Shown here: positions 23,849 through 25,550 of the stretch, in pieces
How positions within the stretch are numbered: the first letter of the stretch is position 1
How the letters are laid out: the number at the start of each line of letters is the position of its first letter
NCBI RefSeq assembly: GCF_963675165.1
Contig: NC_087388.1
Span: 970,800-1,034,799 of the forward strand
Source: Halichondria panicea
Taxonomy: Eukaryota > Porifera > Demospongiae > Suberitida > Halichondriidae
DNA: 64,000 nucleotides
Direction of reading: 5' to 3'
The notes under the pieces: model-generated
The model's input: the letters and a program-made list of their open reading frames with translations, nothing else
What the model was told of the DNA's origin: nothing
Databases searched by the model: none
Program-made: the position numbers and the translations under genes

Positions 23849-25550
23849 ATGGAGGAAAAGAGACTGGTAAAGCTTGTGGAGGCTCTCCCTAAAGCTGAGC
23901 TCCATTTGCACATTGAGGGCACTCTAGAGCCAGAGCTTATGTTTCAGTTGGCCGAGAGGAATGGAGTTAGTCTCGAAGGAACAGTGGAGTCACATAAGGA
24001 AAGGAGGAAGAACTTCAAGGTATTCCTCCATCAATACAATGATGAGCATTTTTTTTCTTTAAACAATATTTGATGCATTGCATACAGGGAATAAATCTTA
24101 TTGTTTGCTACAGAATCTCCAAGACTTTCTGGACCTCTACTATCAAGCATGCAGTGTGCTGGTGAAGGAGGAAGACTTTTATGACCTCATGATGGCCTAC
24201 CTTCGTCAAGCATCCGTCGATAACGTCTACGTTGCTGAGATATTCTTTGACCCCCAGACCCACACTGAGAGAGGAATTTCGTTTGCTCATATCATCAATG
24301 GTCTCCATAGAGCTCTTGTTGACGGTCACCATCGCTATGGTATCCGAGGTAGTCTCATAATGTGTTTCCTGCGACATCTAACAGAGGAGTCAGCATTCAC
24401 CACTCTGACACAAGCCGAGTCTCATCTAGACAAAATACTGGGGGTGGGGCTAGACTCCGGAGAGGAGGGAAATCCTCCTAGCAAATTCCAACGTGTGTAT
24501 GAGAAAGCCAAGAGTCTCGGATTGAAGCTGGTCGCTCACGCTGGGGAGGAGGTGGGTCCTTCCTTTATCACCGAGGCATTGGATATATTGGGTGTGGCCA
24601 GGATCGACCACGGTGTGCAGTGCATTAATAATGAGGAACTCATGAAACGACTTGTGAACGAGGGAATTCCCCTAACAACATGTCCTCTATCCAACGATAA
24701 GCTTCAAGTCAACTCCCGATTCTTCAATGGTCGAAATGTTACCAAGGAGCTGCTTGACAAGGGGTTAAAGGTCACCATCAACTCTGATGATCCTGCCTAT
24801 TTTGGTGGTTACATAACTGACAACTTTTTACTAACTGTTCGCGAGTGTGGTCTAACTGAGAAAGATGTCTACACAATCTGTCGTAACTCATTCAATGCAA
24901 CTTTTCTATCGCCAGTGGACAAGCAACATTATCTGCGAGAAGTTGATCGTGTCTGTGTTGCCATGGGTTACAAGGTTCCATCCCGTTCCGTGACATTCTT
25001 TGGGTCCCGTGCCCCACGTTCTGGAAGTGTGGAATACGAAACGTGTGTCGAATTTTCCAAGGCATTTTCATCTCGAGGCTATGCTGTTGTATCTGGTGGT
25101 TATAGTGGGCTAATGGAGGCCTCGTCCAAAGGAGCCAGTGAAGGAGGCGCAGCCAGCGTTGGAGTATTAGCCCCCCGGGTGTTTGCCGGACGACATCACG
25201 CTGGAAATCAGTACCTCAGTGCCGACCGAATAGCAAGAAGTCTAACGGAACGAATTGACCGAATGCTGTGGGAGAGTGAGTACTTTGTTGTGTTTGGAGG
25301 TACGATTGGAACAATGACAGAACTATTTGTTGCCTGGAATGCCGCTTGCGTGCGTGCCGGCTTTGGAGGAGTTCCTCTGAAGATCTACCTTCTTCGTGAG
25401 GCCTGGGAGAAGTGTCTGGGAGAGTTCAATACCTCACGAGCTGTGTATCCTCGGGACGTGGCCCTGCTGACGTTTGTAGATAGTGCTGATGAGGCAGTGA
25501 GATTGGTGGAGGAGGACATGGCTGCAAGGACTGCAAGAGCCACTTTGTAG
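23849..25550 (+). CDS. Adenine deaminase fused to LOG-family nucleotide phosphoribohydrolase
   Basis: Two exons, 23849-24019 and 24114-25550, encode 535 residues. Residues about 1-330 are an adenine deaminase of the yeast Aah1 type: [20 protein letters not shown] with metal ligands H19 and H21, [29 protein letters not shown] near residue 199, [18 protein letters not shown], and [11 protein letters not shown], the signature that separates adenine from adenosine deaminases. Residues about 345-530 are a LOG/SLOG Rossmann domain: [41 protein letters not shown] (position of the LOG MHERK arginine) and [12 protein letters not shown] (position of PGGxGTxxE). LOG enzymes split (N6-modified) AMP into base and ribose-5-phosphate; adenine deaminase turns adenine into hypoxanthine. 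Coupled AMP-to-hypoxanthine salvage is inference. The intron and animal neighbours argue against contamination. A bacterial source for one or both halves is possible. Confidence 0.92.

Follow-up and report, generated by a model that had tools for sequence, protein, structure and literature searches.

The nearest solved relatives of the deaminase half of the protein described here, AAur1117 (3rys) and 3ou8, are single-domain bacterial enzymes of the Aah1 type (cog1816) that have their active-site motifs in common with it, whereas the animal protein consists of a deaminase joined to a LOG-like domain. The structure 3rys is titled an adenine deaminase and 3ou8 an adenosine deaminase; we take the latter to be Pa0148 of P. 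aeruginosa, an enzyme that deaminates adenine and also takes N6-methyladenine, but not adenosine. Patl2390, a cytokinin deaminase in group 3 of the same cog that is likened here to the fusion by description and not by sequence, is presented as acting on N6-methyladenine and N6,N6-dimethyladenine, with adenine and adenosine given as non-substrates (PMC13296781). Among the canonical LOG proteins (type I and type II cytokinin riboside 5'-monophosphate phosphoribohydrolases), the B. pertussis enzyme (BpLOG) was studied by mutagenesis, with AMP, GMP and CMP, of R120 and E143 for catalysis and of K121 for substrate binding, and a figure title in that report presents its catalytic residues as identified (PMC6864091). 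The fusion has the fold and the Arg/Glu spacing of 23 in common with canonical LOG, but in it GGG or GGx is replaced by GGY, PGG by FGG, and the Lys that follows Arg by Ile. With TT1887 (1weh) and the LDcluster4, or GGY-type, LOG relatives of Acidimicrobiia and Acidobacteriota it shares the GGY signature, the Arg/Glu pair and the best fold match, yet these relatives are without a deaminase in frame and are 27-37% identical to its LOG half (42% in the best row). A further comparison is offered by CRISPR Cad1, in which a nucleotide-sensing domain is joined to a deaminase; there, however, the sensor is a CARF and not a SLOG domain, and the distant deaminase is C-terminal (9c67) whereas that of the fusion is N-terminal.

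Within the window, by which we mean the whole stretch of 64,000 nucleotides of Halichondria panicea DNA that was analysed, reading and splicing of the sequence yielded a single two-exon gene on the plus strand at 23849-25550 that encodes a protein of 535 residues, in agreement with the coordinates, length and intron proposed in an earlier note on this DNA. Exon 1 (23849..24019) encodes residues 1-57, with the HLH motif at residues 19-21, and is followed by a 94-bp intron with GT and AG ends (24020..24113) and by exon 2 (24114..25550, stop codon included), which carries the rest of the deaminase, a short linker and the LOG-like domain in one open frame. The predicted Aah1-type adenine deaminase domain, delimited by Pfam, NCBIfam and PDB matches, bacterial-invariant columns and the structure match to 3ou8 and 3rys, extends over residues 14-336 (23888..24950) with the intron inside it; the domain ends and the position map leave a linker of ~10 residues (337-346; 24951..24980); and the LOG-like domain of the LDcluster4/TT1887 type occupies residues ~347-535 (24981..25547), the LOG fold itself reaching to about residue 522, as judged from Pfam, relatives and a structure model. 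All of the motifs that had been named were located (HLH at residue 19, HAGEE at 199, DHG at 222, a 10-residue motif at 281, LTERI at 434 and an 11-residue motif at 451), and the central claim of the note, that one gene fuses a deaminase to a LOG domain, stood, the junction lying within one open exon. Because this junction and the entire LOG half lie inside stop-free exon 2, the fusion is independent of splicing across the junction, and both domains would be encoded by any transcript carrying exon 2 in frame. G occupies positions -3 and +4 both around the start codon at 23849 and around an in-frame ATG at 24963, which lies within the linker and just ahead of the LOG half; an alternative in-frame ATG at 23819, 10 codons upstream of 23849, has C at -3 and T at +4. 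The GC3 values of the two halves (0.50 and 0.45), set against those of three genes of the window (0.56, 0.52 and 0.49), gave no clear sign of recent origin.

The deaminase half matched Pfam A_deaminase over residues 14-336 at 257 bits (cut-off 27) and passed the NF006850 family model, which NCBI labels adenosine deaminase, at 469.2 bits (cut-off 419). The solved structures 3ou8 (349 bits) and 3rys (302 bits) scored well above all others (104 bits or less), with identities over aligned columns of 53% and 44%, respectively. When the sequence was aligned with 10 bacterial relatives (four from bacterial genomes and six of 103 plasmid records), 69 of the 71 columns invariant among these relatives were found to be kept. 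The cog1816 Aah1-type signature is present, comprising an HxH that we take to be the zinc ligand and further motifs to which we ascribe catalytic roles; an 11-residue deaminase motif is identical in 10/10 relatives and HAGEE in 9/10, the exception (L068) having HADQK. The NF006850 score, the 3ou8 and 3rys matches and the conserved columns bear out the proposed Aah1-type identity, and residues 14-336 are assigned by sequence to the cog1816/Aah1-type adenine deaminases, with the activity predicted from close relatives.

The LOG-like half scored above the Pfam cut-offs for LDcluster4 (residues 350-467, 43.6 vs 26.3) and Lysine_decarbox (residues 391-520, 34.3 vs 27), while TIGR00725, TIGR00730 (51.9 vs 96.35) and CtkRMPhLog (35.6 vs 300) all remained under their NCBIfam cut-offs. 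Two alignments were used, A1 with 32 of 38 LOG ORFs (L041, with scores equal to those of L020, L015-L018, with scores equal to those of L019, and L059, with a stop within the match, were dropped) and A2 with 27 relatives. All 14 columns invariant among the 32 bacterial and viral relatives are kept in the fusion, as are 23 of the 27 columns conserved at a 90% threshold. The invariant columns include Arg437 (codon 25251..25253) and Glu460 (codon 25320..25322), which align with the catalytic Arg and Glu of LOG at the same spacing of 23 that separates R120 from E143 in BpLOG. The claim of a complete LOG domain therefore stood in part: the Arg of LTERI and its Glu partner are retained, but the domain is of the GGY..GxME/LDcluster4 type, and F replaces the P of the strict PGGxGTxxE motif, a position at which the relatives vary too. 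An AlphaFold model of this half had a mean pLDDT of 92, and TT1887 (1weh) was its best solved relative in sequence as well as in fold (Foldseek TM of 0.90, normalised to target length); other Foldseek matches included type I/II LOGs, AMP-bound structures (5zbk, 5zbl, 3sbx) and PpnN, a nucleosidase. A model of exon 2 that leaves out exon 1 (mean pLDDT 86, pTM 0.64) served for fold matches alone, and a BFVD search with it returned as best match a phage LOG family protein at 23% identity. These comparisons assign the LOG half to the LOG-like proteins of the GGY/LDcluster4/TT1887 type and not to canonical LOG, and the conserved active sites in both halves point to selection on both.

The searches of prokaryote, plasmid and viral sequence sets, in which in-depth sampling covered two bacterial phyla, turned up no frame holding both halves. 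No ORF of at least 120 codons at 42 loci outside the sponge genome matched both halves (E 1e-10); matches in 80 of 148 genomes from the class of G001 (E 1e-18) included no row spanning both halves, those beginning in the deaminase ending at residue 368 or before, and a further 11 bacterial genomes likewise had no row across both. The LOG half matched in 6 of 396 genomes of Actinomycetota, the phylum of G001 (E 1e-20), and in 40 of 247 genomes of Acidobacteriota, the phylum of G010 (41 rows, E 1e-15; the loci of 26 of these rows lie outside the fetched set). Among these 6 + 41 rows there was one open frame of >500 codons (G525), and its fetched part had no deaminase match. Among the rows listed for the 11 + 148 genomes, a deaminase-family match and a LOG-half match fell together on one contig only, G342:C1, with ~850 kb between LOG and a 26% deaminase relative; bacterial gene neighbourhoods thus offer no support for a deaminase/LOG coupling, which is weak evidence, many of the genomes being in short contigs. 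None of the 103 matching plasmid records covered 80% of the protein, and the LOG half alone had no match to plasmids or phages at E 1e-5. In viral contigs, no deaminase was found within flanks of up to 3 kb of six LOG relatives, and a search with exon 2 found no relative. The GGY-type LOG relatives encoded by large viral contigs (L014-L019, ~149-256 kb) have no deaminase fused to them. In the open literature, no account of a deaminase–LOG fusion was found among the matches listed.

A recent transfer of the halves from Acidimicrobiia was considered, since close LOG halves and similar deaminases co-occur there, and the record names of some of these relatives suggest to us an association with sponges. 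It is left unproven because the LOG tree places the LOG half of the fusion on a 4.07 branch at an open fork (support 54/44) and because plasmid deaminases are nearly as close, those of Pseudomonadota reaching 52.7% (best 20 of 103) vs up to 55% in the 148 genomes. The fusion probably arose in a eukaryote, where two enzymes of bacterial type were joined.

The statement of the earlier note that animals generally lack both activities appears doubtful for this genome. Contig C13 holds a separate spliced LOG-type gene on the minus strand (C13:5485500-5491000, positions 2248-2415 + 2718-2921 of that locus) with the motif PGGVGTMEEL, whose best model is TIGR00730, matched by single exons and hence under the whole-protein cut-off. 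Other A_deaminase matches in the genome are exons on C2 and C7; the best model for C2 is TIGR01430, adenosine deaminase, and the tblastn match of the C2 gene to the fused half spanned only 45 residues (40%). From their sequences these exons look like a branch different from the fused half, and the C7 gene, presumably ADAL-like, may already serve N6-methyl-AMP.

We lean towards the view that the fusion is a bifunctional animal enzyme of purine-nucleotide catabolism, its two activities, its substrate and the coupling of its sites all being predicted ones. The LOG-like domain would cleave a purine nucleoside 5'-monophosphate (AMP or an N6-substituted AMP) hydrolytically at its N-glycosidic bond, releasing the base and ribose-5-phosphate, and the N-terminal zinc deaminase would convert the adenine-type base to hypoxanthine plus ammonia or an amine. 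Since the LOG product is the deaminase substrate, a two-step route to hypoxanthine and ribose-5-phosphate would be the simplest function, and the chemical compatibility of the two steps, which had been claimed before, is supported in that LOG cleavage of an adenine-type nucleotide yields what the deaminase uses. The physiological substrate is somewhat more likely to be N6-modified AMP derived from microbes or RNA turnover, such as N6-methyl-AMP or a cytokinin-like nucleotide, than AMP itself, because unregulated cleavage of free AMP would waste the adenylate pool; nothing points to cytokinins over AMP or N6-methyl-AMP. Against this bifunctional reading stand the Ile at the position of K121 of BpLOG, the FGG for PGG, and the NCBIfam scores below cut-off.

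The substituted K and P would also fit a SLOG/LOG-like domain that is itself no glycosidase and instead binds a nucleotide signal and controls the deaminase, as CARF does in Cad1. Sensor-deaminase fusions do exist, as evidenced by the Cad1 CARF-deaminases (9c67, 9c6c) that Foldseek found with exon 2, although the likeness to Cad1 runs through the deaminase half. The sponge genome also encodes an 899-residue TIR-TIR-SLOG protein, followed downstream by a second partial copy (C14:331000-340500, positions 1268-3967 and 7014-7712 of that locus), with TIR_2 twice, LDcluster4 and a weak STALD match; we take it to resemble the sensing parts of TIR/SLOG defence systems in bacteria, with the SLOG domain probably a sensor. 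Against control of the deaminase by a non-catalytic domain is the LOG catalytic pair, which is kept at its exact spacing, is invariant in the 32 relatives and would be needless in a pure sensor, and we regard this explanation as unlikely. Quite unlikely, too, is that the halves are two independent enzymes tied together for co-expression only, with the LOG half cleaving GMP, CMP or a damaged nucleotide. For BpLOG, GMP is a better substrate than AMP, and CMP is cleaved as well (PMC6864091), and the bacterial GGY-type LOG relatives occur without a deaminase gene nearby; adenine as a shared intermediate would, however, be the simplest account of a fusion with an adenine-type deaminase.

The gene lies on contig C12 (6.76 Mb) of an assembly of 131 Mb in 39 contigs. 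Wnt is animal-specific, and Wnt-family matches numbered ten, on three contigs including C12, with none in 14 control genomes; the contig is therefore animal. Domains encoded elsewhere in the window include a Zc3h12a-type RNase, ankyrin repeats, and pieces of B-box and filamin/NHL type. A presumably SLC35C2-like gene lies upstream; two of its putative exon peptides, joined into one query, had no Pfam match. At 31100-32060 the window contains a long low-complexity stretch with CTVQQCTV- and TAALYT-type repeats, open in several frames on both strands and probably a non-coding satellite, and at 37056-38552 an ORF with a repeated unit of ~26 residues (LPSQYLQMEQPPSNENTPTGNSV...) that has no Pfam match. 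Elsewhere in the genome, the only match of a COX1 search was a short fragment with two in-frame TGA codons (C1:5280527-5280718), possibly a nuclear copy of mitochondrial DNA. An artefact, contamination or mainly separate products, such as a LOG-only product from the in-frame ATG at the junction (24963, G at -3 and +4), is very improbable in view of the GT-AG intron, the Wnt exons on the same 6.76-Mb contig, the Zc3h12a-type RNase, B-box and filamin/NHL domains of the window, and the one open exon that spans the junction.

The locus is thus a real and unusual domain fusion on an animal chromosome, built from known kinds of enzyme, with the catalytic residues intact in both halves. The fuller proposal, that two bacterial-type genes were fused into an animal two-step enzyme that takes adenine nucleotides with N6 modifications, cytokinin-like ones of microbial partners among them, directly to hypoxanthine, is a tentative one that we consider rather doubtful; to our knowledge such a purine route is known in no animal. 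If both halves are active, the protein would give an animal a direct route from AMP-type nucleotides to hypoxanthine that bypasses adenosine, IMP and salvage by APRT, and N6-modified adenine nucleotides could be cleared by it. The fusion would also hint at a pathway role for the bacterial GGY-type LOG relatives.
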